A DNA stretch of 40,300 nucleotides from Clostridioides difficile CD160 (GTDB taxonomy: Bacteria; Bacillota; Clostridia; Peptostreptococcales; Peptostreptococcaceae): contig NZ_AVHW01000009.1 in NCBI RefSeq assembly GCF_000449425.2, forward strand, positions 1 through 40,300. The letters are read 5' to 3'. Below are positions 1-14,982 of the stretch, piece after piece. How positions within the stretch are numbered: position 1 is the stretch's first letter; each line of letters starts with the position of its first letter. The notes beneath the pieces were generated by a model. The model did no database searches, was not told the origin of the DNA, and saw only the letters and a list, made by a program, of their open reading frames with translations. The translations under genes and the position numbers were made by a program.

Positions 1-165
1 TCATATAATTTCAAAATATAAAATAAAAATTAGAGATGTAAAATAAAAAATATGTATATATCAATAAAAAAATAAAAATAACAATAAAACTTTTAGATAT
101 TGTATTTTTTATTTAAAAAGTCATTCCTATATTATAAATATTAAATATAAAATTTAAGGATAAAA

Positions 166-197
166 AATAAACATTCCTAATTCTAGGAATGTTTATT
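166..197 (-). terminator. Rho-independent terminator of the PARP gene
   Basis: A perfect 14-bp inverted repeat (166-179 pairing with 184-197, 4-nt loop) begins 6 nt beyond the stop codon of the PARP gene. Read on the minus strand it is followed by a run of T. The 165 bases to its left are AT-rich and hold nothing I can identify. Confidence 0.85.
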
Positions 198-203
198 AAA
201 GAT

Positions 204-1556
204 TTAGTAATCTATTTTTTCTATCTCTACAATGTATCGTAATCTAATTTGATTAGTATTATAAACAATGAACTCTGTATTCTTTAAATAAGTACCTCTT
301 ACAGCTTTAACACTATTATATCCTATAGGAGGTTTTATAAATTGTGTTGGTTTATCTACTTCATACACATTACCTAATGCAACTTCAGCTATAAATAAAA
401 AAGCACTTTTATGTTTATTTGGTCTATTTTGCCATGTGCCAAAACTATATAAAGCTGATTTAGTACATTTACTAGCTGTATAAATTCCATTTCCAAACAT
501 TTGCCCACTTCTAACAACACCACTATCTACATGTTGTGGCAATTTAAGATAACTTGATAATATACCAACTAAGTTAGCATTTCTTGAACCATGAAAAAGA
601 TTAACTACATTTCCTACAGAAGAATTAAATTGAGGAGCATTTTTTTGTTTTATACGAAATGCACTTATAATTTTCAATTTAAAACTATGATTTGCTGCAT
701 GACTATTTTTAATCTTGGATTTAATATAGGACATTTCGTCAGAATTTTCTTTTACAGCTCTTATTAAACAATCCAACTTTTTATATTTCATATCTATATC
801 GGAAATGCTCATTACTGGTAATAATCTTAAGGCATCTTCATATAAATCTAATATATCCATTTCTTTTTTAATTCTATTTCTAGAGTTCAAAATCCAAGTA
901 TTTTCATCTCTTACATTAGATGATATTTTTCTTGGTATATACTTAAAATAGTATATACTTAATTCTCTCACCATTTTAATATTATTGTTTTCTAGTGCAT
1001 CCATTGTTTTCCTTAATATGTCTCTTCCTTTATTTATTCCTTGTACTCCTAAGTTACCTAATGGTTTTTTTATATCTGATTTTAAACTACCTGAAATTGA
1101 CAAGCTTACTGCTTGATTTGCTTCTTCATATATTTTACTTACAAAGTCTATTACTGCTGGAGATAAATCTGACTGTTTTGTATTAGTTGAATAGTTTATA
1201 TTCCCTAAAGAGTTTTTGTTGACTTTTGTTTTTGCAACTGTACTACCTACTGTAGTATTGGCCATATCTAATTGCACATATCCTTTTTGAATTTTTGAAG
1301 ATATTTTCTCTTCAAAAACATTTTTTGAATCTTGTAGATTCCTACAAGTTGTAGCTCTCTGTATACCTTTGCTGCCTATTCTACCATAATTAATAAAACA
1401 TCTGTACTCATCTGTATTATTCCTATGTATTTCAGCAATATAATATTTGTGCTTGTTTTCATTAGGCTCAAAAAAGTTTAATGTTACTTGTTCTAACACA
1501 TCATAGTTTTTTTTGTAAAAAGAATCTCCATTTATTGGATTAAAGTTTACTTGCAT
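204..1556 (-). CDS. Poly(ADP-ribose) polymerase (PARP): WGR, regulatory and catalytic domains
   Basis: This 450-aa protein should transfer ADP-ribose from NAD+ to protein or nucleic acid and release nicotinamide. Residues ~15-95 form a WGR-type DNA-binding domain (YGRIGSKG at 57-64). Residues ~130-270 match the helical PARP regulatory domain (PLGNLGVQGINKGRDIL at 165-181). Residues ~310-448 are the ART fold with the full H-Y-E triad: H322 in HGSR, Y359 in GNGIYTAS and E428 in LKNTEFIVY. The layout is that of eukaryotic PARP2/PARP3. I start it at ATG 1556, 9 nt after GAGGGAG; an in-frame TTG at 1580 lies upstream of that site. No signal peptide is present, so it acts in the cytoplasm or is an exported effector without a classical leader. 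Bacterial PARPs are uncommon; from memory one from a Clostridioides difficile isolate has been characterised. No macrodomain or PARG is visible nearby. Confidence 0.93.
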   Translation of the reverse strand: MQVNFNPINGDSFYKKNYDVLEQVTLNFFEPNENKHKYYIAEIHRNNTDEYRCFINYGRIGSKGIQRATTCRNLQDSKNVFEEKISSKIQKGYVQLDMANTTVGSTVAKTKVNKNSLGNINYSTNTKQSDLSPAVIDFVSKIYEEANQAVSLSISGSLKSDIKKPLGNLGVQGINKGRDILRKTMDALENNNIKMVRELSIYYFKYIPRKISSNVRDENTWILNSRNRIKKEMDILDLYEDALRLLPVMSISDIDMKYKKLDCLIRAVKENSDEMSYIKSKIKNSHAANHSFKLKIISAFRIKQKNAPQFNSSVGNVVNLFHGSRNANLVGILSSYLKLPQHVDSGVVRSGQMFGNGIYTASKCTKSALYSFGTWQNRPNKHKSAFLFIAEVALGNVYEVDKPTQFIKPPIGYNSVKAVRGTYLKNTEFIVYNTNQIRLRYIVEIEKIDY

Positions 1557-1882
1557 TTTAAAACACTCCCTCGATGTCAAAAATTTTAATTTTTTAGCTT
1601 AAATATTTCACCCTAATTTAATACAAAATTTTTAATAGAAATATTTTTTAAAAAAATTTAGTTTTTGTTAATCAAATTTTGTTTTATAATGCAGAATAAA
1701 TTTAATTTAATGTAAATTATGTTTTTTTTATGATGTTTGTAAAGTCAAAGCAACATATAATGTGAATATAGCCAAGAAATAACTTTATAAGCTTTTCAAA
1801 CAGGTCATAATGGTTTTTATAAGGGGATTATTTTCTAATGGCCTTAAAATGCCATTTATAGCATCAATATAAATAGTATAAT
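1557..1882. other. Intergenic region between the two ADP-ribosyltransferase-like genes
   Basis: These 326 bp are AT-rich and hold no ORF with a ribosome binding site. The only structure I see is a short inverted repeat, AATGGC/GCCATT with an 8-nt loop, near 1838-1857. It has no T run, so I do not call it a terminator. The region probably contains the promoter of the PARP gene, but I cannot pick one with confidence in such AT-rich DNA. Confidence 0.4.
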
Positions 1883-2671
1883 TCAATTTAATATAATTTT
1901 ATCAATAAGTCTTGCATTTTTTGTTATAACTTCTTTTTCCTTCCTTATATTTGTATAAGCTATGATATCTTTAATTTTAATTTTATACTTTGCAATTATT
2001 CCCCCATTTTTATCCCAACGAGTTGCAAAGAATTTTGCTTGGTCATATGATAATGTATAACTAAAACCATTTATATTTTTAGCTTTGCTTCCACGATAAG
2101 CTGTTATCTCATAATTTTCATCTATTTCATCTTGCAGTTTATAATAAATTTCTTTAGTAAATTCATCTTTTCTCTGGAGAAATAAATCTTCTAAAATATT
2201 AACTAACTGATAATAACAATTTGAATCTTCAATACTACAATAGACGTATAAGCCACACTCAAATAAAGATTTTATAGAAAAACAATTTTCGGATTCTAAA
2301 AAATTATCTATCATTAATTTATATTGTTGAAATAAATCTCTTTTGTTATTTAGAAATAATGCATGTGTAGCATCATCTTCTAACAATGATTCTTTGAAAG
2401 ATTCTTTTTTAGATAAATAAAGTTCTATTACTAAATTACATATCTCATTTTTCTTAGTATATATGATATTATCTATAGATGTAACTTCTTTATGTCCAAG
2501 CTTAAACATTATATAGCTAAAATCAATACTAAAGTAAATTTGTGTATCATAAACAGATATGTATGATAAAAATAAAAAAGTTTTATCAATAATTATATCT
2601 GCTGAAAAATCATCATTTATATAAAATTTATAAATTATAGTATCTTCTTTCTCTAAGAAAAATTCATTCAC
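1883..2671 (-). CDS. Putative R-S-ExE ADP-ribosyltransferase-like protein
   Basis: The protein has 262 aa from a GTG at 2671, which sits 7 nt after GGGAGG; an in-frame ATG at 2701 lies upstream of that site. The first ~180 residues are not recognised. The C-terminal ~80 residues follow the pattern of arginine-type ADP-ribosyltransferases: an arginine strand (AYRGS, R193), then GFSYTLS (S204), an aromatic AKFFATRW segment, and finally RKEKEVI with E245-x-E247. These are the expected R, S and ExE elements in the right order and spacing. Known members of the fold cleave NAD+ and modify a protein; the substrate here is unknown. There is no signal peptide. It lies between the PARP and ligase-like genes, behind a terminator, so it is probably its own transcription unit. 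The catalytic assignment rests on motifs alone. Confidence 0.6.
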   Translation of the reverse strand: MNEFFLEKEDTIIYKFYINDDFSADIIIDKTFLFLSYISVYDTQIYFSIDFSYIMFKLGHKEVTSIDNIIYTKKNEICNLVIELYLSKKESFKESLLEDDATHALFLNNKRDLFQQYKLMIDNFLESENCFSIKSLFECGLYVYCSIEDSNCYYQLVNILEDLFLQRKDEFTKEIYYKLQDEIDENYEITAYRGSKAKNINGFSYTLSYDQAKFFATRWDKNGGIIAKYKIKIKDIIAYTNIRKEKEVITKNARLIDKIILN

Positions 2672-2748
2672 TATATAACCTCCCAAATTTAAATATATCA
2701 TTATTAAAGCACATGCTATTACTTTAAAAAAGCCTTTACTTTACAAAA

Positions 2749-2793
2749 AAAAGATGATTTAATTTGATATATTTTCAGTTTAAATCATCTTTT
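2749..2793 (-). terminator. Rho-independent terminator after the ligase-like gene
   Basis: A perfect 14-bp inverted repeat (2749-2762 with 2780-2793, 17-nt loop) starts 4 nt past the stop codon of the ligase-like gene. On the minus strand it runs into eight consecutive T residues. It separates that gene from the ADP-ribosyltransferase-like gene downstream. Confidence 0.85.
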
Positions 2794-2797
2794 AATA

Positions 2798-3886
2798 TTA
2801 ATAAGTTGTACAAAATAATAATTGGCCATCCTTTGTTATAGGAATTATAATACTATTATCTATATATAAAAAACTAATAAAATCTTCTTTGTGTATATCG
2901 AGCATAAGAATATTGATAGGAGAATACAAGTTTATATACCTTACTAAGTCTTCATCAATTATCAAAGGTTGTATTTCTGCTATAGGAACAATTCCTTTTT
3001 TACTATAGCACCAAAACACATCCTTTATAATAGCAACATAGGATTTTACTTTCCAATAATCCATTTTAAGTAAGAAATTTAGAGCTGCACTTCCTTTTAT
3101 ATCATTAGATTTAATGAAAACACCATCGCTCTGATAATTATAGTAAGAAGCTTTCTTTTCAAATATGCTTAGTACATCTTTAAGACTCTCAATAAAAGTA
3201 TCTCTGTTTGTTTTCAGAGCTATAAAACATGGTATTTCAAAGCCATTACAAGTACAAAAAGCCTCTGTTTCATAAAAGGTATTAATCTCTGCTATATTGT
3301 CTACAACAAAGTTTAGGTAGTTGAGTATATTATTTCTTAATACATAAATGATTGCATCTGCAGGATTATCTATATTTTTATTTTTGTCTTTAATTTTTTT
3401 GAGTTTAGCATTAGAGATAGTTACATAACCATTTATAGTAAGTATATTTTGTGTATTTTTTATATTGTTTGGAATAATATCGCTCAAATAAGCCATCAAA
3501 GCGTGATATATATTTTTAAACTTTGTATTACAATCTACAAATAATCCTTTTTTATATATTAAACTAATATAAAATCCTTTCACCTTTAAACTATATATTA
3601 TTTCAATATCATATATAGGTAATAATCTTGAAACATTATTTATACATTTATCTGCTAGACTAGTTACAAAACTTAACTGTGTACTATTATTTCTTTTAGC
3701 ATAAAAACTTGAATTTAATATATTAAAGTAAGTTTTATACATATCATAATAATCATCATTTATTAGCTTAATATTTTCTTCATAGTAGCTATGTATATAT
3801 TTTTTTAGTTTCGACTCTAATGAGTCTAATAATAATTTATCTGTCAAATCAATAAAATTTAAATTAAAATAATCAATTAAATGCAT
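2798..3886 (-). CDS. Divergent, shortened NAD+-dependent DNA ligase-like protein
   Basis: The 362-aa protein follows the first half of bacterial LigA almost from end to end. Residues 31-50 align without gaps to the NMN-binding domain Ia (Y34, D44, Y47 and D48 in the places of E. coli LigA Y22, D32, Y35 and D36). NSTQLSFV (67-74) matches the SPTQRVG segment. SLKVKGFYISLIYKKG (99-114) matches KxDG, with the nucleophile-position lysine K101 kept but the Asp replaced by Lys. NIDNPADAIIYVLRN (171-185) matches NPRNAAAGSLRQ. SDGVFIKSND (253-262) matches DGVVIK. KKGIVPIAEIQPL (297-309) and the IIIPI near the end match the OB-fold GRTGxxTPVA and VIPxI. The TRGDG arginine and GE glutamate of LigA appear lost. 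The Zn finger, HhH and BRCT domains of the ~670-aa family are absent. It may be an NAD+ or nucleotide-binding relative rather than a working ligase. The ribosome binding site before the ATG is weak. Confidence 0.72.
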   Translation of the reverse strand: MHLIDYFNLNFIDLTDKLLLDSLESKLKKYIHSYYEENIKLINDDYYDMYKTYFNILNSSFYAKRNNSTQLSFVTSLADKCINNVSRLLPIYDIEIIYSLKVKGFYISLIYKKGLFVDCNTKFKNIYHALMAYLSDIIPNNIKNTQNILTINGYVTISNAKLKKIKDKNKNIDNPADAIIYVLRNNILNYLNFVVDNIAEINTFYETEAFCTCNGFEIPCFIALKTNRDTFIESLKDVLSIFEKKASYYNYQSDGVFIKSNDIKGSAALNFLLKMDYWKVKSYVAIIKDVFWCYSKKGIVPIAEIQPLIIDEDLVRYINLYSPINILMLDIHKEDFISFLYIDNSIIIPITKDGQLLFCTTY

Positions 3887-4019
3887 TAATTAAAATATTT
3901 AAGTCAAAATCTATAAATATCTATAAATATAGTTTTGATTAAAGGATTAGAAAAGTAATCTATTTTAAGATACCTATATTTTGGCTATTCTCCTTTCAGT
4001 ATTATTTAGTTATATAATT

Positions 4020-4433
4020 TTATTTATAACTGTTAATATAATATATAATAGTATTACAATAGAAACATTTTATGTAAGATATACTATATCCATCTAAAGT
4101 TAAATATTCAGGATTAAATATGCCTATACCTGAGTTGTTGCAACAATGCCTCCAATGTTTAGGTTTATCAGATAATCTTTCTATATTTTTTACATTAAGT
4201 ACTTTTTTAAAATGATTTTCAATATTAACATATCTAGTATTTCTATCTAAAAAGTTTTTAGCAATTCTAATTGCACGATTAATTGGCTGCATAGACTCTA
4301 TCATTTGTGTATGACCAGGTATAATAATTTTATATAAATTTTTTTCTTTATTAAGAAGTAAATCTACATATTCTCCATTACTTTTATTTAAAAATCTTAT
4401 ATTTCCACTTGCATTAATATACTTTTCTGTCAC
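4020..4433 (-). CDS. Orphan protein with possible C-terminal zinc knuckle
   Basis: I do not recognise this 137-aa protein. A GTG at 4433 lies about 5 nt after GGGGGGTGA and is preferred to the in-frame GTG at 4442, which abuts the site. The C-terminal 50 residues hold HWRHCC, then CFYC about 30 residues later; such His/Cys pairs could bind zinc. There is no signal peptide or membrane segment. It starts 21 nt after the 235-aa gene and precedes the ligase-like gene by 133 bp, so the three may be co-transcribed. Confidence 0.75.
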   Translation of the reverse strand: MTEKYINASGNIRFLNKSNGEYVDLLLNKEKNLYKIIIPGHTQMIESMQPINRAIRIAKNFLDRNTRYVNIENHFKKVLNVKNIERLSDKPKHWRHCCNNSGIGIFNPEYLTLDGYSISYIKCFYCNTIIYYINSYK

Positions 4434-4454
4434 TTCTATCACCCCCCTTTGTAT

Positions 4455-5162
4455 TTAATAAATGGTTATTGTAACAAAAGCACCAGTTTTAGAGGAAGCT
4501 ATTTGCAATGCTTGATAGATTTCTTTAGTTTTATTTTGATTTAATGTTTCAGTATTAAGATTAATTATATTCTCTTTATTATTTTCAATTATTTTTATAC
4601 CAAGTGTCTTTTTGTAAATTTTATTTTTTTTAATGAATCTAGTTAATATGTATTTCAAATCTAGCTTATATGCTGGATATTCTGACTCATTTAGCCTTAT
4701 TATATTTTTATCATTTGTACAAAAAGCTCCTAATATCAAAATATAATAATTATTTCTTCTTTTTAAATACTTAGATTTAAGTGTCAGCACAGAGTCTAAA
4801 AACTTATCAAATTTTATTTTTTCTTCTTCTTGAATAAGGTTGATTTTATCTATAAACTGTTTATCTATAGTTTCAGGAATAAGATAATTTACAGCATTTT
4901 TAAAATAATTTCTATTACATAATACAATTATTCCATTGCTAACATTGTATAATGTAATATCATTTGTTCCAGGACCAATAGCATTAACAACATCATTATA
5001 TTTCTCCTCATCTTTAATCAAATATCCCCAATTACCACCTATGCAAAAAGATTTTGCACAAATACCTATCGCTAATTGTTCTTTTTCAGGTAAATTTAAT
5101 AGTTTTTCTTCAGAAAACTGATTATTATAACTTTCTTTATCTTTGTATGTTAAATTGTTCAT
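4455..5162 (-). CDS. Hypothetical protein of the NAD+-linked accessory module
   Basis: This 235-aa protein is not recognised. It starts at ATG 5162, 7 nt after GAGAGGTG. It is soluble and mixed alpha/beta in character. The N-terminal half contains CIGGNWGYLI and NAIGPGTNDITLYNV, which look like a small alpha/beta domain, and the middle is charged and probably helical (about residues 105-140). It lies directly upstream of the His/Cys protein and is probably co-transcribed with it. Nothing in it points to a function. Confidence 0.75.
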   Translation of the reverse strand: MNNLTYKDKESYNNQFSEEKLLNLPEKEQLAIGICAKSFCIGGNWGYLIKDEEKYNDVVNAIGPGTNDITLYNVSNGIIVLCNRNYFKNAVNYLIPETIDKQFIDKINLIQEEEKIKFDKFLDSVLTLKSKYLKRRNNYYILILGAFCTNDKNIIRLNESEYPAYKLDLKYILTRFIKKNKIYKKTLGIKIIENNKENIINLNTETLNQNKTKEIYQALQIASSKTGAFVTITIY

Positions 5163-5344
5163 TAATATACACCTCTCATTTGTTTATAAGTTTTGCTTTG
5201 TAAAATCGTTTACTATCATCTAAATTCAAATAAAATCTCCATTTTTATTCATATTATCTCCTTTCATTAAAATAAGCTTATAAAATATATATTTTTATTT
5301 TGATAAATTGATTTTTTATATTATTCTAGATTATAAGTTGTATT

Positions 5345-6118
5345 TTATTTAGAATTAAAAATATCTGGGACTAAAATTTTTTGAGTTTTCATTTTATAAT
5401 TTTTATTTACATTGAAGAAAAATAAAAAATTTACATTTAAATCTTTTTGAAATTGTTTATATAATAGATGTAAACAATTTAGTACATTTTCAGAAATACC
5501 ATCACAATTTATTAAAAAAATACCTAAATGTTTTCCATGAATTATTAAAATATCTAGGAGCTTTAGCAACATATAGACATCATCTTCTTCAATATCATTT
5601 ATAGATTTTATAGGAGTATTTGTAATGGAGTTTATTATTTGTAAATGTCCATTTTGGAAACTATATATATAATTAAATTCTGACTTTAGTAAAGCAGCTA
5701 TAGCATTTGCAAGATTTTCTTTAAAAAGCTTCTTATTATTTAAAGATTTATTTTTTATTATGTTTATACTGCCATTATCAAGTAAGACTCCTTTAGCATA
5801 GAAGTTTTCTTCTCTTAATTCTTTTTTACTTAATATATAGATAGATGTTTTTAATTTAGAATAAGATAAATTCCACTTAACATTACATCTGTTTTTTTCA
5901 ATACTTCCAAAAGTTCCACAATCAATATTGATTCCACTTATATTGCCATATAAACAGTTTGACAAGCCTTTGAAGGTTGCTTCTAGTGCATTCATGTATA
6001 GATGCGTATTTTCTTGTGTATTACTTTTAAAAACAATTTCTATAGGCTTTTTATCTTTTGAATCAATATTAAATGATTTATTTTTTATATCATTTGCATA
6101 TTCAAATGTAAGTATCAT
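5345..6118 (-). CDS. Hypothetical protein of the NAD+-linked accessory module
   Basis: I do not recognise this 257-aa protein. ATG 6118 follows a weak GATGGTGA site; an in-frame TTG at 6136 is less likely. The C-terminal third has two hydrophobic strands, ILIIHGKHLGIFLINCDG and NVNFLFFFNVNK, around a helix. That arrangement would suit the distal half of a P-loop-like fold, but no Walker A loop is present, so this is only a hint. It is preceded by a terminator hairpin and begins a new transcription unit. Confidence 0.7.
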   Translation of the reverse strand: MILTFEYANDIKNKSFNIDSKDKKPIEIVFKSNTQENTHLYMNALEATFKGLSNCLYGNISGINIDCGTFGSIEKNRCNVKWNLSYSKLKTSIYILSKKELREENFYAKGVLLDNGSINIIKNKSLNNKKLFKENLANAIAALLKSEFNYIYSFQNGHLQIINSITNTPIKSINDIEEDDVYMLLKLLDILIIHGKHLGIFLINCDGISENVLNCLHLLYKQFQKDLNVNFLFFFNVNKNYKMKTQKILVPDIFNSK

Positions 6119-6591
6119 TTTATCACCATCTTTCAAGTTAATATTTTTTGTATAGTAATATACTAAAAATATAATTTAAAATTTAATAAAAAAAAATGAT
6201 AACTATTTTATCTAGTTATCATTTTTTTATTTTTTATATTTATTAATGATATAAAATTATCTTTTAATTTCTATTTTGTAATAAAAAACATGTAAAAGTA
6301 TAGAAATAATAAATCTATTTTTATAATCTATGCTCTAGAAACACATCATAAGAACGATTAAAATCACATTTAGAAGCCATAAATATTGTGAGTTTATATT
6401 TATCTATTAAATAATTGTTTTTCGATTTTTAAAAGTGATTAGAAAATAAAATGTATCATAAGTAATCTTATTGTATTTTGTGAAAATTTCGATAGTAATG
6501 ATTACATAGTCTCAAATAATATTTTTATCTATTTAAATTAATATGGGGCTTATTTTCTAAACTTATAAACTATAGAATATGCATTCATAAC
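6119..6591. other. Intergenic region carrying a terminator
   Basis: These 473 bp contain the hairpin at 6191-6228. Outside it I find no ORF with a convincing ribosome binding site, no tRNA and no clear repeat. A 19-codon reading frame at 6321-6380 was considered and rejected. The stretch from 6330 to 6510 is slightly less AT-rich than its surroundings and could hold a promoter or a small RNA, but nothing specific supports either. Confidence 0.4.
6191..6228 (-). terminator. Hairpin terminator upstream of the 257-aa gene
   Basis: A perfect 15-bp stem (6191-6205 with 6213-6227, 7-nt loop) has an A run on one side and a T run on the other, so it could work in both directions. It would end transcription coming from the 125-aa gene. 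Confidence 0.75.
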
Positions 6592-6969
6592 TTAAATATT
6601 AGACTGAAATACATACCCCTTTTGCACTCTTTTAAATATATCAATTATGAATATATACAAACTATCTTTTATTTCTTCTATGTAATCTATATTAGAATTG
6701 TTTTTTATAGACTCAAATATGGCAGATATTTCATTTAAAAAAGATATTTTAGGGTTTGATTCTTGATTATTATTTGTTATCTTCAACCAATATGATAAGG
6801 ATTCAGCAAATAATTTTAGATGTTCTTCTCTATCTTCACCTATTTTCTGATATTCGGGGTCTTTACTATGTATCTTTTTATTTGCAAAAACTGAATAGCT
6901 ACGAATTATTTCTTTAATTAAATTCTTTAAATCTTGCTCCATTTCTAGATTAAGTTCCAACTTTCCCAT
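6592..6969 (-). CDS. Small helical hypothetical protein
   Basis: This 125-aa protein starts at ATG 6969, 8 nt after GGAGGAG. It appears almost entirely helical and charged (EMEQDLKNLIKEIIRSYSVF near the N-terminus). It has no signal peptide and no transmembrane segment. I recognise no family. It is the first gene after the secretion locus terminator, with a long inverted repeat in its upstream region. Confidence 0.75.
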   Translation of the reverse strand: MGKLELNLEMEQDLKNLIKEIIRSYSVFANKKIHSKDPEYQKIGEDREEHLKLFAESLSYWLKITNNNQESNPKISFLNEISAIFESIKNNSNIDYIEEIKDSLYIFIIDIFKRVQKGYVFQSNI

Positions 6970-7067
6970 AATTAAATCTCCTCCTTGATTTTTTAGTACA
7001 ATTCTTAAATATATTTAATTGTTACTTGCAAAAATATTATTACATCTAAATCTAAAAAATTTTTATA

Positions 7068-7126
7068 GCGCTAAATAATATAAAATTCAAATAATATCTA
7101 AATTTAAATTTTATATTATTTAGCAC
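7068..7126. repeat. 20-bp inverted repeat with 19-nt spacer
   Basis: The arms 7068-7087 and 7107-7126 match at 19 of 20 positions. No T run follows on either strand, so this is not a classical terminator. It lies about 100 bp upstream of the 125-aa gene, where it could be an operator, a structured leader or the remnant of a small mobile element. Confidence 0.6.
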
Positions 7127-7257
7127 TATCTATGTTATGTTATATTTTATCATTTTTTATATTTTATCATCTTTTACATTATTTATACAATAATTTAATT
7201 AACAACTTAGTTAGAAAATAGTACTATAATAATAGTTTTTTTAGTAGTTATTTACAT

Positions 7258-7295
7258 AAAAAATATCAGGCATATAGCTATACCTGATATTTTTA
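7258..7295 (-). terminator. Terminator at the end of the secretion locus
   Basis: A 14-bp stem with one mismatch (7261-7274 with 7279-7292, loop TAGC) starts 5 nt after the stop codon of the 567-aa lipoprotein gene. It is followed on the minus strand by a T run. It marks the 3' end of the T4SS transcription unit. Confidence 0.85.
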
Positions 7296-7296
7296 T

Positions 7297-9000
7297 CTAT
7301 TTTTTATCTATACAGAGAGCATTTTTCTTTGAAAAGTCAGCTTTTTCAGTTTTTACATTTAAAGTCCTAGTATAATCAACTACTTTCCATTCAGAATCAC
7401 TTAATGCTACATCTACAGTAGCTTCTGTATCATAATTTCCTTCTTTAGTTTCAAAAATTTCACGTAATGTAATAGATGCGAAACCATTAGTTTTTGTATT
7501 CCATGAAACTATGTAAGAAGTTTTCTTATCTGCATGAAGAGCAGTAACTGTATGTGCTATTTTTTGTAAAGTACTCTGTGATATTCCCATATCTACAATA
7601 CTTGTAAATTCCTTACTGCTAACATCTCCTTTTAACACAGCTTTACTAAATTTTTTCAAAGTATTTTTTATGGCAAGTTCATTTTCTTTTGTAAAAGAAG
7701 AACTAGAGTAGTTTATTATATCAGATACTCCTGTGACATTCTCTATAACTGAAAGTGGTTCTCCTACCATTTTTATATTAATTGGGTATATACTTTTTAT
7801 TTTTAAAGTATCATCATTTGCTAAAGCTAAGTTAAATATAAGAGTCTCTTGATACGTTGGGAAAGACATATTAGTACCTTTTGGTCTTGTCTTACTAACT
7901 CTGTCTACCTTTACAACAAGAGTATCTCCTCTTTTTTCTAAAATATCATATGTATATCCATTATAAGATGTATAAGTATAGTTAGATAAGTCATCATAAT
8001 ACTTATCCATTCCACCATAATCCTCAAAAAGTTTGAATAATCCAACATGATTTGTTTCTTCTACAGCTTTATTATGACTTAAAATAAGTTTGTCTACAAA
8101 GGGCTTTAATACTTCTATCCCAGTATTATTTTTAGACGAATATTGAGATAATAAAGCTTCATAGCTGCTTAATTCATAATCTTTTAGATATAGAGCTTTT
8201 ACTGTCATATCTGTTTCCTCACCAAGATTGTGATTATAATTAAACACATATCTTATTGTTAGTGCTCCTCCAACATTTAAGTTTGTATCTGCTAGTAATC
8301 CACTGTAAGTTAAACGGCCTATTCCTTTTGTATCACTTTCTAATTTTCTAGTTCTTTCTAATAATGATATTCCTTGTTGTTCAGCTCGAATTTTTTCTGG
8401 TTCTCCCCACTTAACAATAAAGTCCTGTAATTTCTGATTAGCAGTATCACTACCTGCACTTTGTAGCTCAAGTACATTTTGATAGTCTTCTACTCTTTGC
8501 TTTTTCTTAGCTTCTTCACTTGCACTTCCATTTGCTATAGCGCTTGGAGGAACAACACTTTTTAGCGATTCCGTTGTTCTATATTTTACATCAACAAAAT
8601 ATAATCTTGTTGCAGGGTCATAACCAACTTCACTTATTTTAAATTGTTCCCATTCAAAAGGTGTTTTTGCAAATTCTGTTAATAAGTAGTTACCATAGCT
8701 AAAGTTCAGGACATCATTATCTTCTCCTTTTAAATATTTATCAACTTTTTCCAAACAAATTCTTATTGCAGTCATATCTTTTTCATTAATTTTTAATAAA
8801 TTAGATTTATCAACAGTTATTCTATCACTAATAAGGTTATAAATAATATTGTCTTTTTCATCTGCAGTTGTCTGTGCCAATCTTCTTCCTGCAACTTCTT
8901 CTAATGTTAAAGAATTCGTTTTTTCAACGTTAGATTTACAACCTGTGACTGTTGACCCTAATAATGTTATTAAAAATAAACTTAGAAATTTTTTATTCAA
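7297..9000 (-). CDS. Large lipoprotein, possible multi-domain VirB8/TcpC-like subunit
   Basis: This 567-aa protein starts at TTG 9000 after AAAGGATGG. It has a lipoprotein signal peptide with lipobox VTGC, giving lipid-linked Cys21 on the outer face of the membrane. The rest is soluble and beta-rich. It appears to hold repeated ~110-130-aa domains, with strand patterns such as YDILEKRGDTLVVKV and DVALSDSEWKVVDYTR. These look like NTF2-like folds of the VirB8/TcpC kind, but that is inference from pattern only. It is the last gene of the secretion locus, following the coupling ATPase and a 150-aa orphan, and ends in a strong terminator. A role as an outer scaffold of the conjugation channel is plausible. 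Confidence 0.75.
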   Translation of the reverse strand: MNKKFLSLFLITLLGSTVTGCKSNVEKTNSLTLEEVAGRRLAQTTADEKDNIIYNLISDRITVDKSNLLKINEKDMTAIRICLEKVDKYLKGEDNDVLNFSYGNYLLTEFAKTPFEWEQFKISEVGYDPATRLYFVDVKYRTTESLKSVVPPSAIANGSASEEAKKKQRVEDYQNVLELQSAGSDTANQKLQDFIVKWGEPEKIRAEQQGISLLERTRKLESDTKGIGRLTYSGLLADTNLNVGGALTIRYVFNYNHNLGEETDMTVKALYLKDYELSSYEALLSQYSSKNNTGIEVLKPFVDKLILSHNKAVEETNHVGLFKLFEDYGGMDKYYDDLSNYTYTSYNGYTYDILEKRGDTLVVKVDRVSKTRPKGTNMSFPTYQETLIFNLALANDDTLKIKSIYPINIKMVGEPLSVIENVTGVSDIINYSSSSFTKENELAIKNTLKKFSKAVLKGDVSSKEFTSIVDMGISQSTLQKIAHTVTALHADKKTSYIVSWNTKTNGFASITLREIFETKEGNYDTEATVDVALSDSEWKVVDYTRTLNVKTEKADFSKKNALCIDKK

Positions 9001-9021
9001 ACTTATGCACCATCCTTTACA

Positions 9022-9474
9022 TCAAATAATTAATTTGCCATGCTTTTTAAATATCTTACATTTTTTTAAATTATCCTGTATTTCGTCTGAAGAAAAATAC
9101 TCTAACACATCTTTTTCTAAGCGCTTACCAGGGTTTTGTTTTAAAAATTCTCTTATACTCATTCCTTTTTTATAAATTATATTTTTTTTATTAAATAAAA
9201 AATTGTCATCAGATTCTGATTTTATATTATTTGTTTCTTTTAAGACATCTTTTCCTTTTTTAATACTAACTTTTTTAATTTCTAGTAGATATCCATTTTG
9301 AATATTAATATTTTGTGAAGCTAAATTATGACCATCTTGAATATAAACTTGAGGTATACCTAAGTTAATACCAGATTCTATAGCTATATTTTTGATACTT
9401 TTTCTACGATATTTTTCTTCAATAAAAAATATTTCTTTTTTTAGTTCTGAGTCTATATTAGAAATACATATCAT
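9022..9474 (-). CDS. Hypothetical cytoplasmic protein of the secretion locus
   Basis: This 150-aa protein starts at ATG 9474 after AAGGAG. It is lysine-rich and has no membrane segment. The last ~50 residues (SIREFLKQNPGKRLEKDVLEYF onward, about 101-150) could form a small helix-turn-helix-like or docking domain; I do not recognise it. It sits between the coupling ATPase (18-nt gap) and the lipoprotein, so it is probably part of the machine. Confidence 0.75.
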   Translation of the reverse strand: MICISNIDSELKKEIFFIEEKYRRKSIKNIAIESGINLGIPQVYIQDGHNLASQNINIQNGYLLEIKKVSIKKGKDVLKETNNIKSESDDNFLFNKKNIIYKKGMSIREFLKQNPGKRLEKDVLEYFSSDEIQDNLKKCKIFKKHGKLII

Positions 9475-9492: not shown

Positions 9493-11541
9493 TTAAATTT
9501 CTTTCCAAATACTGAATTCATCATCATCAAATATTTCTTTTTTTTCTTTAGATGACTTTATTTCATTACTTGATTCAATTAATGAATTGTTTTTATTACT
9601 ATTAGGTTCTTGTTTTAGCCAAAATTTATTGAGAAATTGAAAAAATTCAGCTAATTCTTCATTAGATGGAGTTAAAAGTATTCCATGCACAAATTTTGTC
9701 TTTTCATTAAAGAATTTAACAGCTAATTCACCTTTATTTTTTAATCTTTCTCTAAACTTCCTATCTCCAGTAGTTCTTTCAATATGTTCAGGGCTTCCCA
9801 TAACAGAAATTCTACATGGAATATTGTCTGTTACTGTTTTTGAGATTATTTCATTTTTTATAATATGAGGCATCATAATTATTCTTATTCCAGTCGCAGG
9901 TAATCTTGTAACTAGTTCACTTAATAATCCTTGAAATTCTGATTTAGTATCTTTATCCATAGTTTCTGCCAATGTTATAACTTCATCTATAACCACATAA
10001 AGTAGAGGCATATGTATATCTGGATTCTTTTTTTTATAATCCCATATATTAACATATCCTGCACTTCCAATTAGTTCTTGCCTTTTTGAACCTTCTACTT
10101 TAACAACATATCTTAGCTCTTTTAAAATATCTTCAGGGGAACTTACAAATCTTTTAACATGTGGTATTTTAAAAGAGTTATAGTCTGATAACTTATCTTT
10201 TGGGTCACATATATGAAATTCTGCTTCAGATGGAGGAAGAAAAAAGGCAATTTGTGATAAAATACTAAGTGCTAAAGATGTTTTTCCAGTTCGAGGAGTA
10301 CCTGATATAAGAAGAGAGTCCATATGTTTTAAATCCTTACATACAACTTCCCCTTCCATATCAATACCAAATATAACTGGAAGGTAGTTTTCACTATCAA
10401 GCACATAATTTTCAGCTAATTTATATGTATCTCTTAAGGATACCTTTGTAAAAGCACCCTTCATTATTTTTATTTTTATAATATCTCCAACTGTTACACC
10501 TAGACCATATATATTTTCATCCAAGACTCCTTTATCATTGTCAAAAGCATATATATTTACAATTTCTTTAACTAGAGAATCTTCATTTTTTAACCAACGT
10601 GGTCTTTTTATAGATAAAGATATATAGAATAATTTTTCTTCCAATTCGACTAAGTACATTTTTTCTATCTCTTGATTTCTTCCACCGATTATTTTTGCTG
10701 AGTTTTCTATTATTACATCCCAAGCTAAAAATTCATCATCATCTTCATCAAATTTTTTTACATCATTAAAATTAGGATTTATATATGGCAAACAATTACT
10801 TATGCTATCATAAAGAAATTTTCTAGGTATCATTCCATTTAGCATATTTGTTCTAAGGTTTTCTAATATAAAAGCCATATTATTTTGAATATTTTCATTA
10901 TCAGTTAAAATATCAGAATATGCATCCTCCTCCTCATCAAAGAAATAATCCTCATCGTCTTCATCCTCCTCTTCGAGAGTATAAGAAGAATCCGCTTCTG
11001 ATATTTCTTCGTTTATAGTACTCTTATCCTCAGTAGTATTTTTAATATTTAAGTAAGAAATATAAAATAAAGGGACTCCTATCCCAGCTGAAAATAATCC
11101 ACTAAGTATCAGGTCCAGTCCCTTCGTTTTTCCGAATATTAGACCTATAGCCCCTATTGCAGCAGTAATTATACTTGTTATAACTATAGTGCGACCAGTT
11201 TTTACTATAGTTAATAGTTTTAAATCATTAAATGAAGTTACAAAGTCTTTTAAGAAATCAAAGAAACTTTTAAAAAATATTACAAATGTATCAAATATTT
11301 TTTCTTCACTGGAGGCAGGGGATGTCTGTTGTTGCAAACTAGACATCCAATCATCTGAAATGTTATTACTCATATTATGTTCAGAAAAATCCAAGCCTTC
11401 ATCCCAATTCAAGTCTCCTAAACTACTTTCATCTGAGTCAAAATCATCTAATCTAGGTTCTTTATCTGCTGCATAAAGGTTGTTTCGTTCTATTTTCCTA
11501 TCATCTATAGCACTTTTAGATACTTTGCTTTGCATACTCAT
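9493..11541 (-). CDS. FtsK/TcpA-like DNA-transfer coupling ATPase
   Basis: This 682-aa protein should pump DNA into the secretion channel, as VirD4 and TcpA do. Start: ATG 11541 lies 7 nt after AAAGGGG; an in-frame GTG at 11550 overlaps that site. The N-terminus is acidic and disordered, two membrane helices follow at ~114-165, then a second acidic stretch (~180-205) and the FtsK/SpoIIIE motor. Its Walker A is SGTPRTGKTSLA (~412-424). CDPKDKLSDY and KIPHVKRFVSSPED follow in the FtsK order. Walker B is LLYVVIDEVITLAE (~511-524) and the sensor-like segment is TGIRIIMMPH. All catalytic residues are present. Its placement beside the VirB4-like ATPase supports a conjugation role rather than chromosome segregation. 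Confidence 0.9.
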   Translation of the reverse strand: MSMQSKVSKSAIDDRKIERNNLYAADKEPRLDDFDSDESSLGDLNWDEGLDFSEHNMSNNISDDWMSSLQQQTSPASSEEKIFDTFVIFFKSFFDFLKDFVTSFNDLKLLTIVKTGRTIVITSIITAAIGAIGLIFGKTKGLDLILSGLFSAGIGVPLFYISYLNIKNTTEDKSTINEEISEADSSYTLEEEDEDDEDYFFDEEEDAYSDILTDNENIQNNMAFILENLRTNMLNGMIPRKFLYDSISNCLPYINPNFNDVKKFDEDDDEFLAWDVIIENSAKIIGGRNQEIEKMYLVELEEKLFYISLSIKRPRWLKNEDSLVKEIVNIYAFDNDKGVLDENIYGLGVTVGDIIKIKIMKGAFTKVSLRDTYKLAENYVLDSENYLPVIFGIDMEGEVVCKDLKHMDSLLISGTPRTGKTSLALSILSQIAFFLPPSEAEFHICDPKDKLSDYNSFKIPHVKRFVSSPEDILKELRYVVKVEGSKRQELIGSAGYVNIWDYKKKNPDIHMPLLYVVIDEVITLAETMDKDTKSEFQGLLSELVTRLPATGIRIIMMPHIIKNEIISKTVTDNIPCRISVMGSPEHIERTTGDRKFRERLKNKGELAVKFFNEKTKFVHGILLTPSNEELAEFFQFLNKFWLKQEPNSNKNNSLIESSNEIKSSKEKKEIFDDDEFSIWKEI

Positions 11542-11546
11542 TAGAA

Positions 11547-11693
11547 TCACCCCTTTGCGATAAAAACATAGATAAATAAGAATATTGCAAATAAACTAAA
11601 CACTATATAAAAACTTGTTTTTGATTTTTCATTCATGGAGCTATTTAATATATAACTAAATAGAAATATTAACAAAATTATAATAAATATCAT
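11547..11693 (-). CDS. 48-aa two-helix membrane protein
   Basis: A short gene lies between the VirB4-like and coupling ATPases. ATG 11693 follows a near-perfect TTAGGAGG by 5 nt. The product has two hydrophobic helices (about residues 2-16 and 27-45) joined by a polar NSSMNEKSKTS turn, ending with AKG. Its stop codon overlaps the ribosome binding site of the coupling ATPase, a sign of translational coupling. Size and layout are like small VirB3/PrgI or TcpD/E-type subunits, but the sequence is too short to assign. Confidence 0.8.
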   Translation of the reverse strand: MIFIIILLIFLFSYILNSSMNEKSKTSFYIVFSLFAIFLFIYVFIAKG

Positions 11694-11702
11694 GATAGCC
11701 TC

Positions 11703-13760
11703 CTAATTTTTTAAATTAACACCTGTTTTAAATATTTTTGAAGAAGCTACATCATTTGGAAGTTCCATTCTTGTTAAACCGATTTTATCTGAATCTAAAG
11801 AAAATAAGAAAGCATTTTGTAAGTGAGAACTTATTTTTGATGAACTATTTTTATTATGTTGATTTTTATTTTTAATTCTTTTTGCAGATGATAATTCATA
11901 TAAAGTAGGTTTAAATTGTGGGACCTGCAATCTTGTAACAAGTTCATCAATTACTTTTGTATCTTTAATCGCTCCAACAAAGAAAGATGTTGTATTACTA
12001 AATATTCCAAATTTATCATCATCCAATAGTTTTTGAACATCATTTGTTACAATTATATTTACATCTCCAATTTTTCTTCCACCAGTTACAGCAACTCCAA
12101 GTGTCTTGTCTGAGTCAGGGAATTTACCCCAACGTTGAAATTCTTCCCAAAGTTTAACATTAAAACAACCTTGTGCCTTGCTATATATTGAGCGAAGATG
12201 ACTTAATATAGAAGCCTCTATTTGCATCAAGGTTAATTGAGTTTCGTCAACAGCATGTTGAGATTTACCTTCCATACCAAAAGAACATATAATCAAATCT
12301 GCAGACATAAGAGAATCTATATTAACTTTTTCTTTAAATGTATGTGACATTGTTCCATTTTTCTCAAAATATCTACTAGTCAATGCAATTGCTTTTTTAA
12401 CTGCATTTTTATACTCAGTATTTGTTCTGTAAATGTGTGTTTCATTATAGGAACTTAAACTTTTTAATTTGTCATAGACATCAAAAATAGATAAACCTTT
12501 TGAGTTAACCCAAGTACTCTCTTCATCTGTAATTCCAGCCTCAGAATATACTAATCCTATTGCATCTTCTAGTACAACACTTAACCAAGTATCTTTATCA
12601 AACTCTTTGCCTAATAAAGCTCTAAGTTTTGCACGTGTGAAATCTAAAGAAAGTGCCTTAGCTTTTTCATCTATCTCTCTTATACCTGTTTTTGGAGCTA
12701 TTTCCATTGATTCGAAGTACTTGCCAGTACCATCACCCATATTTAAAATTTCTACCTTACTGTTATGACTTAAAAAATTAGCCATAGGAATATATTCAGT
12801 TCCTTCTATATCCATTATAGTTATTTTGAATCCAGCAGCTATTAATTGAAGTAGTATACTCTTTACAAACAGGGATTTTCCCCATCCTGTTTCTGATGTG
12901 ACTAGCCAATTTTCAGCACTAACAGACTCTTGCTTCACCTTTTTAAACACTGGAAATCTAGAGTTTATATCAATTCCAAAGCATATTCCCTCTTCACCTA
13001 AAGTTCCTTGTTCATAGGTAGAATATCTTGATACAATTTCATCTGTAATTATCTGAGCAGGAATATAATCTTTTACTGATTTTAAGTACAAATGGCTGAA
13101 TGGGCTGAAATATTTTAAAAAATCAGGTATTTCATATAAAATTCTTTTTGTTTTTATTCCAAGATTTTTTGTACATTGCTCCATTTTCTTTATATTATAA
13201 TCAAATAAAGAGCCACGAGGTCCTGATATAATCATTAGTATTGAACTTTTCATTATACCTCGACCTCTTTGTTTATCTGCTATTGAGAGATAATTTAATG
13301 ATTCCTCAATATATTTTTGCTTGTTTATAGAATCTATATTTTTATGAAGATTATAAGCATCTACATCAGTTTGTTTTTTTTCCTCACTTACTTCCTTTAA
13401 TGTGTTAAGTCTAGACTGCATAGCAGGAGAATCCCAATCTATAAAATGGTTTTCTAAATAATTTATAAAGGTGATTTTTATTCCATAGCTACATTCATTT
13501 CGTATAATATTTTTAAAACGTATTCTAAGCTCTCTAGGCATTTCGTTTATTAGATAATAATATGAGATATTTTCCTTACTATAGGTACATGAAAAATCAA
13601 TTCCTATAGTATCTGAAGTAGTATACAATTTCTTTGTATAGTTACTTTTATTTTTAGTCAAATTGCTATAATGTAAGTCATCATACAAGCTTAATGTATT
13701 TAAAAGGTTTTGATATTTTTTATCTAAAAAAGATAAAATTTTATTTGAAAGATTACTCAT
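11703..13760 (-). CDS. VirB4-like type IV secretion ATPase
   Basis: This 685-aa protein is the main ATPase of the channel. Start: ATG 13760 lies 9 nt after GAGGTG; an in-frame ATG at 13790 would overlap the upstream gene by 17 nt. The first ~280 residues resemble the less conserved VirB4 N-domain. Walker A is TSETGWGKSLFVKS (~286-300). FKITIMDIEGTEYIPMANFL follows, typical of HerA/VirB4 proteins (strand then IEGTEY). The Walker B position reads NVKLWEEFQRWGK (~535), where the usual DE is replaced by EE. VTGGRKIGDVNIIVTNDVQKLL and the FFVGAIKD segment match the C-terminal VirB4 pattern. There is no transmembrane segment; it probably docks at the inner face of the membrane through neighbouring small membrane proteins. 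Confidence 0.88.
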   Translation of the reverse strand: MSNLSNKILSFLDKKYQNLLNTLSLYDDLHYSNLTKNKSNYTKKLYTTSDTIGIDFSCTYSKENISYYYLINEMPRELRIRFKNIIRNECSYGIKITFINYLENHFIDWDSPAMQSRLNTLKEVSEEKKQTDVDAYNLHKNIDSINKQKYIEESLNYLSIADKQRGRGIMKSSILMIISGPRGSLFDYNIKKMEQCTKNLGIKTKRILYEIPDFLKYFSPFSHLYLKSVKDYIPAQIITDEIVSRYSTYEQGTLGEEGICFGIDINSRFPVFKKVKQESVSAENWLVTSETGWGKSLFVKSILLQLIAAGFKITIMDIEGTEYIPMANFLSHNSKVEILNMGDGTGKYFESMEIAPKTGIREIDEKAKALSLDFTRAKLRALLGKEFDKDTWLSVVLEDAIGLVYSEAGITDEESTWVNSKGLSIFDVYDKLKSLSSYNETHIYRTNTEYKNAVKKAIALTSRYFEKNGTMSHTFKEKVNIDSLMSADLIICSFGMEGKSQHAVDETQLTLMQIEASILSHLRSIYSKAQGCFNVKLWEEFQRWGKFPDSDKTLGVAVTGGRKIGDVNIIVTNDVQKLLDDDKFGIFSNTTSFFVGAIKDTKVIDELVTRLQVPQFKPTLYELSSAKRIKNKNQHNKNSSSKISSHLQNAFLFSLDSDKIGLTRMELPNDVASSKIFKTGVNLKN

Positions 13761-13773
13761 TTTTATATTCACC

Positions 13774-14955
13774 TCAACATTGGAGTTCATTTAAAAGGAC
13801 TTCGTCTAATTTTGTAAACCCTTTTGAACAATGCTGAAAATAAGCATTTCTTCTTTCATATTCATCGAATTTAAAGTATTTCATAATGAAAGGTATTTCT
13901 ATGTTAGCTGTTTTTTTAATTGCTACAATCGTTCTTGAAATATCTAAATTAAATTTTTCAATGTCAGAACTTCCAGAAATTGCAGAATACTCTTCTACAG
14001 TATTACCTTCTATTATCTTTTCACCAAACATACAATCAATTACAATGTGAACATCAACTTCCTCTTGAAAAAATTTTTCTAATATCGCTTTTCTTGGGTC
14101 AAAAACAGTATATATATGTTTTGAAAGCTTCATTAAATTTATAGTGTCAGCAGATAGTGAAGGAATATGGCTATATCTTTTACTGTATACATTTAACTTT
14201 GGGAGAAATAATAAAATTTTAGAAGTATGATTTTTATGTATTTTTAAATATTGTTGATATGCACATAAAAAAGATATTATATAATTACATCCATAATTTT
14301 TCACATATAATATTTTGCCACTATGTAACATAGGCACTTTATATGTACTATATATGAATGGTGTATTTGGTTTTGGAGAATTTTCTAACTTATTAATATA
14401 ATCATTTAATTTTTGCAATTCTTCTTTTGATTTCTTTTCATTTTCAGCTGCTTTATTTATTATATCTAAGATAGATTTGTCTATATTTTCATACTGATAA
14501 ACTAAATTCTCGATTCTTGATAAAGATTCTTTCATATTATCTAGTAACAAATCATTTTTTTCTTCATCTGATAGAACCATTGATTTTTTTAACAAGTTAA
14601 TATCTTTATTTGACTCTGATATAGTCATTCCTGTACATTTATAGTTATCAATTATGTAAGAAATAATTTCATCATCTTCTAAATAATCTTCACTTTCGTA
14701 AATATCAGCTTCAAGGCAACTAAATATACACTTATATAGAAATGCCTTTTCATCAGTACTTGGAACAACGTAAATAATTTTTTTGATTTTTTCTTTAAGA
14801 CCCATTAGACAGTTAAGTATTTGATTATCTGTACCTTCTGAACTATGAAATATTAAACACTCTATTGAGTCAAATGAAGCTATATTGCTTATATCTTTAT
14901 AATTAGTTGTGATTTTTGTATTAAAATCTTTTGTGGTTATTAGAATTGGTTTCAT
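13774..14955 (-). CDS. Possible degenerate MinD/TadZ-like protein
   Basis: This 393-aa protein starts at ATG 14955 after AAAGGAAA. Residues 1-110 alternate strands and helices like a receiver domain. Residues ~130-190 are a charged coiled coil. The C-terminal ~200 residues have KILYVKNYGCNYIISFLCAY where a P-loop could sit and VDVHIVIDCMFGE where Walker B would be, but no glycine-lysine loop. This parallels the next gene upstream (receiver-like N-terminus, linker, P-loop-like C-terminus), so the two may be paralogues. No direct homologue comes to mind. It ends just before the VirB4-like start. Confidence 0.55.
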   Translation of the reverse strand: MKPILITTKDFNTKITTNYKDISNIASFDSIECLIFHSSEGTDNQILNCLMGLKEKIKKIIYVVPSTDEKAFLYKCIFSCLEADIYESEDYLEDDEIISYIIDNYKCTGMTISESNKDINLLKKSMVLSDEEKNDLLLDNMKESLSRIENLVYQYENIDKSILDIINKAAENEKKSKEELQKLNDYINKLENSPKPNTPFIYSTYKVPMLHSGKILYVKNYGCNYIISFLCAYQQYLKIHKNHTSKILLFLPKLNVYSKRYSHIPSLSADTINLMKLSKHIYTVFDPRKAILEKFFQEEVDVHIVIDCMFGEKIIEGNTVEEYSAISGSSDIEKFNLDISRTIVAIKKTANIEIPFIMKYFKFDEYERRNAYFQHCSKGFTKLDEVLLNELQC

Positions 14956-14982
14956 AAAAATTTTCCTTTCTTGTTATAAATG

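Follow-up and report, generated by a model that had tools for sequence, protein, structure and literature searches.

Why would a bacterial genome place a poly(ADP-ribose) polymerase (PARP), a relative of the DNA ligases that use nicotinamide adenine dinucleotide (NAD+) and a putative ADP-ribosyltransferase (ART) next to one another? This arrangement occurs at positions 204-6969 of a contig from a Clostridioides genome, analysed here over its whole length of 40,300 bp (the window, or contig C9), in which seven genes lie on the minus strand (open frames 204-1580 to 6592-6969) where a first-pass annotation had placed them. That annotation had grouped them into one NAD+-centred system. As a cassette this system did not hold; what stood is a broader pattern, in which PARPs of this kind share their replicon with a NAD+-dependent DNA ligase (LigA) on 11 of 12 plasmids tested, the genome itself has a second LigA and a poly(ADP-ribose) glycohydrolase (PARG), and the ligase-like neighbour (LigL) keeps the positions of domain Ia presumed to contact NAD+. 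Our tentative preference is for a PARP-centred DNA-break toolkit of giant elements, equipped with a private LigA and with LigL as a possible NAD+ binder, rather than a cassette shared by the neighbouring genes. The features on which the argument turns are the following.

204..1556 (open frame 204-1580), minus strand: PARP, a WGR-PARP_reg-PARP_cat polymerase of 450 amino acids (aa) from an ATG at 1556 with GAGGGAG upstream; called from its Pfam domains
1883..2701, minus strand: ART-like protein, 272 aa, with a likelier start at the GTG at 2671, which has GGGAGG upstream; phrog_4776 (1.6e-13), conserved YRG, S and ExE
2798..3886, minus strand: LigL, a truncated homologue of NAD+-dependent DNA ligases, 362 aa, with domain Ia, the adenylation domain and part of the OB fold; PF01653, phrog_3869 and alignment
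3743..3787, minus strand: LigL domain Ia motif YY-x8-D-x2-YD, residues 34-48; alignment and residue shuffles

PARP and LigA on giant replicons

The PARP assignment was borne out. Three domains follow each other in order, all above their Pfam cut-offs (PF00644, 3.8e-31; WGR, 1.7e-15; PARP_reg, 5.1e-9), and no other PF00644 frame was found in the genome. The H-Y-E catalytic triad is present (H322, Y359, E428), and 16 of the 16 residues checked against the published positions of CdPARP, these three included, agree (PMC5966428). Because all of them match, we take the window protein to be CdPARP, which has the same domain order; from sequence it is almost certainly the CdPARP of C. difficile CD160. 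CdPARP (T3DQ72, QEW_4625) has been described as a DNA-dependent PARP in vitro, which modifies itself in the presence of NAD+ and activated DNA, and a PARG of strain CD160 (QEW_4455) removes the modification (PMC5966428). The genome studied here likewise has a PARG gene, on contig C114. The words "plasmid" and "ligase" do not occur in the available text of that paper, so the genomic setting and the ligase-like neighbour are undescribed there.

Within the class, 2 of 391 genomes have such a PARP, the second only as a 194-aa open frame. Outside it, the PARPs that we found sit on giant plasmids and large phages: 19 of 72,556 plasmid records (each between 302 kb and 1.17 Mb) and 14 of 50,697 phage records (137-595 kb). 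In viral contigs 106 PARP stretches were found; a scan of these contigs with the single PARP protein gave no match. One paper mentions that a few jumbo phages have PARPs and that subsets have NAD+-dependent ligases, and the passages available draw no link between the two (PMC7824862).

Carriage of LigA was assessed by searching whole records with PF01653, for 12 of the 19 PARP plasmids and 4 of the 14 PARP phages; the seven PARP plasmids outside this test are other Variovorax, Vibrio and P. polymyxa records. LigA was present on 11 of the 12 plasmids (9/9, then 2/3 more), with nine of the 11 frames measuring 669-729 aa, and on none of seven controls, which were large plasmids hand-picked by accession, all from outside the PARP plasmid list. 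The difference (11/12 vs 0/7) has a Fisher p of 1.6e-4, to be read with the records not being independent, several of the PARP plasmids being related. For the collection at large, one LigA query at 1e-20 matched 215 of 72,556 plasmid records, and some of the megabase records listed look like chromosomes. PARG (PF10021) was found on 3 of the 9 PARP plasmids and 1 of the 4 PARP phages tested. Most of the tested plasmids thus bring their own NAD+-dependent ligase, and the settings of these PARPs point to maintenance of element DNA over host repair, which makes the role of bacterial PARPs testable. In the literature, none of the titles and abstract openings among the papers listed in our searches described PARP-LigA co-carriage or paired macro and PARP genes.

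The window's own genome fits this pattern, with its second LigA as a 675-aa frame on contig C8 and PARG on C114. The latter contig (58.4 kb) also carries ParB-HNH, PAPS reductase-DUF3440 and LPD29 genes; C8 (16.2 kb) carries SPFH, 3D and DUF1002 genes and an SSB-like gene below its cut-off. In a tree of 15 LigA sequences, with Leaf58 and silesiensis outside the set, the Bacillota plasmid enzymes form one group, two Pseudomonas enzymes another, and the C8 enzyme falls with the host LigA; these groups suggest that plasmid LigA may have been acquired repeatedly. A single Bacillus plasmid (195/216 kb compared) has homologues of all three of the VirB4-like protein of the window, LigA of C8 and the ParB-like protein of C114.

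LigL, a truncated ligase homologue

LigL resembles LigA at the level of families: PF01653 matches at 1.2e-6 (28.6 bits vs a cut-off of 27), phrog_3869 at 3.9e-12 and phrog_3359 at 3.5e-6, and the NCBIfam LigA models match far under their cut-offs. Its identity to 15 LigA sequences, a set that includes an Aneurinibacillus frame of 598 aa without its N-terminus, is 17-24%. It shares with LigA the domain Ia contacts, the adenylation profile match, the catalytic lysine and the DG and lysine of motif IV, and differs in being about half as long: in the alignment it ends after the OB fold, without Zn finger, HhH or BRCT. In the numbering of the C8 enzyme, LigL retains K112 (the catalytic lysine), G115 (motif I), D279 (motif IV DG) and K284 (motif IV lysine), whereas D114 of motif I is replaced by K, E167 of motif III by Y and R194 of NPRN by A, and K308 of motif V is deleted.

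KxDG, the motif III glutamate and the motif V lysine are essential for LigA. This set is incomplete in LigL, in which only the lysine of the KxDG K/D pair is kept, and from what is known of LigA the protein should be incapable of ligation. Since LigL is unlikely to ligate, there is probably no third NAD+-consuming enzyme at the locus; of the three NAD+-using families claimed in the first-pass annotation, PARP was confirmed and LigL, having lost several active-site residues, was not as a third consumer.

The picture is different for domain Ia. The motif YY-x8-D-x2-YD aligns ungapped, and its five residues (Y, Y, D, Y, D), which we take to be the contacts of nicotinamide mononucleotide (NMN) and NAD+ in LigA, are identical in the LigA of the host, that of C8 and two further chromosomal ones; some plasmid enzymes deviate at the first of these contacts, and 4 of the 15 rows of this comparison had no automatic register or a wrong one. 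When the first 90 residues of LigL were shuffled, the pattern was reached in 12 of 20,000 trials. Solo NLig-Ia domains are reported from 81 phages and have been proposed as NAD+ sensors (PMC9503650). LigL could be a variant of this idea: like the phage proteins it has the Ia contacts and lacks a competent ligase active site, and it differs from them in still having a degenerate adenylation domain and part of the OB fold. If true, a ligase relative with NAD+ contacts and no intact active site would add a new architecture to these proposed phage NAD+ sensors.

The ATG of LigL has no clear ribosome-binding site, unlike those of PARP, the ART-like protein and most orphans (as read from the letters), which weighs against good expression. 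LigL was found in 1 of 71 genomes of the family, its own, and in 3 of 393 genomes of the order, where the other two hits are open frames as long as an ordinary LigA (667 and 670 aa). With tblastn it returned ten Streptomyces plasmid LigA records only and no phage, and a single-protein scan of viral contigs gave no match; the genome contigs contained one weak and distant match, with 20% identity over residues 101-337 (locus L018). A single-sequence AlphaFold2 model reached a predicted local distance difference test score (pLDDT) of 32.1.

The seven-gene stretch and its possible role

Do the seven genes form a unit? We compared 96 PARP loci (80 on viral contigs, 12 plasmid regions and 4 phage regions), with flanks of 10-15 kb on each side where the contig allowed; many viral flanks are shorter, often ended by the contig. 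The viral loci are the best 80 of the 106 stretches, and our own PARP profile re-found PARP in 78 of the 80. A LigL-, ART- or orphan-like gene lay beside PARP at 0 of the 96 loci (E <= 1e-3, within the flanks), and a full-length LigA at one (L075). The reverse comparison gave the same result, with no PARP, LigA or orphan-like gene beside ART at any of 23 loci (19 viral, 4 genomic). The three genes were therefore never seen together elsewhere within these loci, and the orphans did not travel with either PARP or ART, contrary to what one seven-gene system would have led us to expect. We rejected a three-enzyme NAD+-consuming cassette, given the lack of recurrence and the dead ligase. A rule by which LigA would stand next to PARP was rejected as well, with LigA in the flank at 1 of 96 loci.

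The layout of the stretch gives a similar answer. The remaining genes, and two hairpins between and beyond the genes, are these.

4020..4442, minus strand: orphan, 140 aa; open frame
4455..5162, minus strand: orphan, 235 aa, 12 bp before the 140-aa orphan; open frame
5345..6136, minus strand: orphan, 263 aa; open frame
6592..6969, minus strand: orphan, 125 aa; open frame
166..197, minus strand: intrinsic-terminator-like hairpin after PARP, perfect, 14 pairs, with a T tail; terminator scan and inverted-repeat search
2749..2793, minus strand: A+T-rich hairpin with a trailing T run, between LigL and the ART-like gene; arms of 19 nt, 89% complementary

The direction shared by the genes had been offered as evidence of a unit, and it is none, because 30 of the 31 non-overlapping open reading frames of at least 100 aa in the 40.3-kb contig are on the minus strand. 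The gaps between the seven genes measure 96-455 bp, except for the 12 bp between the 140- and 235-aa orphans. In the region 1-9200 we counted four terminator-like sites vs 0.9 in shuffles, the only one at a gene end being that after PARP (the hairpin at 2749..2793 was not called by the terminator scan, and its T run was read from the sequence), and 68 promoter-like sites vs 80.4 expected from chance, which is no excess. The stretch is not one operon or cassette.

The four orphans were described as having no family, and this was confirmed: none has a convincing match, the best E values being 0.06 in Pfam, 0.022 in PHROGs and 0.019 in PADLOC, with none in NCBIfam. The 263-aa orphan has no family match in any of these four, and it and the 235-aa orphan gave no match when scanned against viral contigs. 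For the ART-like protein the assignment stood in part. It matches phrog_4776 (1.6e-13), a family annotated as of unknown function, and R203, S214, E255 and E257 are invariant in five aligned members, the window's included, where they form YRG, one serine and ExE, presumably the motif set of the R-S-E ADP-ribosyltransferases. The R-S-ExE reading is thus supported by sequence, whereas the ART fold is not demonstrated, with a best Pfam E of 0.039 and a single-sequence AlphaFold2 model at pLDDT 33.1. Three of the four aligned relatives are 189-193 aa long and lack most of the N-terminal half of the window protein, and we know of no enzymatic test for this group. The family occurs in 5 of 391 class genomes, the window's own among them, and relatives were found on 19 viral contigs; tblastn with the window protein gave no match in the plasmid or phage collection, nor did a single-protein scan of viral contigs.

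A different neighbour of PARP did recur. A macro-like gene, detected with a profile built from three sequences, lies in the flank of 15 of the 80 viral PARP loci. In eight of them (L087, L088, L089, L090, L105, L118, L127 and L128) it is upstream and ends within 15 bp of the PARP frame or overlaps it, with gaps of -15 to +14 bp between mechanically called frames. Others lie 203 bp (L133) and 824 bp (L097) upstream, 507 bp downstream (L103) or 2-9 kb away (L075, L076, L079 and L086). Clustering of the PARPs at 90% identity gave 56 groups, of which 7 contain the ten upstream cases, and a Pfam scan of nine macro proteins (L087 and L118 outside the scan) assigned all to PF01661, eight above the cut-off. 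These pairs suggest that in viral contigs a writer and an eraser (or reader) of ADP-ribose travel together. At L075, on a viral contig of 168 kb, PARP, a guanylate kinase, a macro-like gene and a full LigA lie on one strand within 6.5 kb (9926-16409); its macro-like protein scores just below the cut-off and its PARP is 38% identical to that of the window.

Individual loci showed other neighbours of PARP. On a megaplasmid of Pseudomonas FeN3W (L023, 11956-13960) the gene directly after PARP encodes the RNA 2'-phosphotransferase KptA, a further NAD+-using enzyme with an ART fold (PMC9503650 for the fold). In Cellulophaga phage phi17:2 (L028, 11611-14657) one small gene separates PARP from an annotated ATP-dependent DNA ligase. 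On a Tsukamurella plasmid (L070, 7580-19173) FtsK/SpoIIIE and an ATPase adjoin PARP, and an annotated ADP-ribosylglycohydrolase gene is found about 5 kb off. On three Bacillota plasmids (L016, L020 and L021) annotated genes of the PAPS-reductase family lie 1.4-9.6 kb from PARP, and C114 has one too.

How could these observations be brought together? In the toolkit that we tentatively favour, PARP would bind nicks and ends in the DNA of the element during replication or transfer and would put ADP-ribose on itself, on DNA ends or on bound proteins. PARG would remove this mark, and the private LigA would then seal the nick. More speculatively, LigL would not ligate, yet might bind NAD+ or NMN through domain Ia and act as a NAD+ sensor or a nick-binding regulator. 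The ART-like protein would be an unrelated mono-ADP-ribosyltransferase of phage type acting on a host protein, and the four orphans would be cargo. We lean towards this toolkit because 11 of 12 PARP plasmids carry LigA and the genome itself has a second LigA and PARG; LigL, the ART-like protein and the orphans are companions of PARP in the stretch, with at most a putative link to it. A bolder version seems to us quite improbable: giant mobile elements would each have their own NAD+-budgeted DNA-break circuit, made up of a nick-activated PARP, a PARG or macro eraser and a private NAD+-dependent ligase, and in this element a catalytically dead LigL that still reads NAD+ would set when PARP may spend it. 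Of the LigA-invariant columns, LigL keeps 3 of 9 in the Ia region; for the adenylation domain the count is 9 of 34 and for the OB fold 5 of 14. Domain Ia as a whole is no better kept than the rest, and we rate this bolder version slightly lower for it.

Several further points weigh against the toolkit. On the 11 plasmids a distance of 23-521 kb separates PARP from LigA, and on phage XacN1 it is 174 kb; the two form no gene pair, so this is co-carriage and not linkage. Two of the 11 plasmid enzymes are not clean full-length frames (606 aa in Aneurinibacillus, split in two frames in Leaf58), the Tsukamurella PARP plasmid has no LigA, and among the four PARP phages tested LigA is present in one and missing from three. 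LigA also occurs on a 216-kb Bacillus plasmid outside the PARP records, and PARP and LigA may both simply mark self-sufficient giant replicons. The C8 LigA is 60% identical to the host's own. That C8, C9 and C114 belong to one element is inferred, the three being separate contigs, and no relaxase was recognised among the window proteins scanned. Finally, no orthologue of LigL was found in the collections searched.

The evidence against a unit serves another explanation, namely that PARP, the ART-like gene and LigL were acquired separately, are adjacent by accident, and that LigL is a decaying ligase copy. We regard this as a genuine possibility, although a somewhat doubtful one. It would account for the 96 PARP loci lacking LigL-, ART- and orphan-like neighbours, for the hairpins and 96-455 bp gaps that part all genes except the 140- and 235-aa orphans, and for a LigL with no clear ribosome-binding site and few invariant positions in all three of its regions, whose only other matches in 393 order genomes are frames of ordinary LigA length. 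It sits less well with LigL being an intact 362-aa frame with all five Ia contacts kept, and with CdPARP being active in vitro (PMC5966428).

Other roles would look beyond the DNA of the element. PARP and ART might target host proteins or DNA ends for modification as the element comes into a cell, in the manner of phage ARTs; PARPs do occur on large phages and giant plasmids, phage PARPs have been proposed to act like ARTs (PMC7824862), and relatives of the ART-like protein are on 19 viral contigs. We consider such a role in host take-over or establishment unlikely, as we recognised nothing in the window that would indicate delivery or packaging, and as the automodification of CdPARP with activated DNA (PMC5966428) points to a sensor of DNA ends more than to a general effector. 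Anti-phage defence by NAD+ use, one of the roles first proposed for this locus, would have PARP and ART respond to infection by using up NAD+ or by modifying targets in the phage or the host, with LigL as a NAD+ gauge. CdPARP does make poly(ADP-ribose) from NAD+ when activated by DNA (PMC5966428), and the genes lie beside transfer-like ones. PADLOC, run on the seven proteins, gave just two weak matches (a WGR model to PARP, E 0.011; ZorB to the 140-aa orphan, 0.019), large phages themselves carry such PARPs (the 14 phage records and 106 viral-contig stretches given above), and a PARG in the genome fits reversible signalling better than suicide. No described defence system was matched, and defence appears very unlikely to us.

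The transfer-like setting

The stretch looks like an accessory region beside transfer-like genes of an apparent large mobile element in a Clostridioides genome. Judged by its PARP, this genome is most likely that of C. difficile CD160 or of another strain that has the identical protein. The window is one entire contig of an assembly of 4.76 Mb in 114 contigs; the seven other genomes of the genus in the set (eight in all) measure 3.9-4.3 Mb. G+C is low on C9, C114 and C8 (26%, 25% and 24%, respectively). The rest of the window is mostly a minus-strand run in which profile searches recognised PF01580, PF01935, NlpC/P60, LytR_cpsA_psr and large membrane-type proteins. Two ATPases stand out.

9493..11550, minus strand: FtsK/SpoIIIE ATPase, the closest recognised gene of the transfer-like run; PF01580, 5.1e-11
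11703..13790, minus strand: HerA/VirB4-like ATPase; PF01935 (HerA/DUF87), 4.5e-5, above cut-off

The HerA/VirB4-like ATPase has relatives on nine records of the plasmid collection, all from Bacillus and of 136-216 kb, and at E 1e-20 the only one of 297 order genomes to match was the window's own. One of these relatives is on the Bacillus amyloliquefaciens XJ5 plasmid (216 kb), where FtsK/SpoIIIE and LigA are annotated as well; this plasmid has no PARP match, and the VirB4-like protein is the only window protein that aligns to it (E <= 1e-3). Megablast of window positions 1-25000 against the plasmid and phage collections gave no match, and neither did an Rfam scan of the window.

Two repeats were also seen. 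An inverted repeat of 28 nt, 93% complementary, occupies 7065-7129 of the window, in the non-coding gap upstream of the 125-aa orphan. At the contig end (39806-40300), a direct repeat of about 35 residues is present in frame in two copies, with a unit of the NTNKKNDEDNINNEDINQSLVQTSSIKEISND type.

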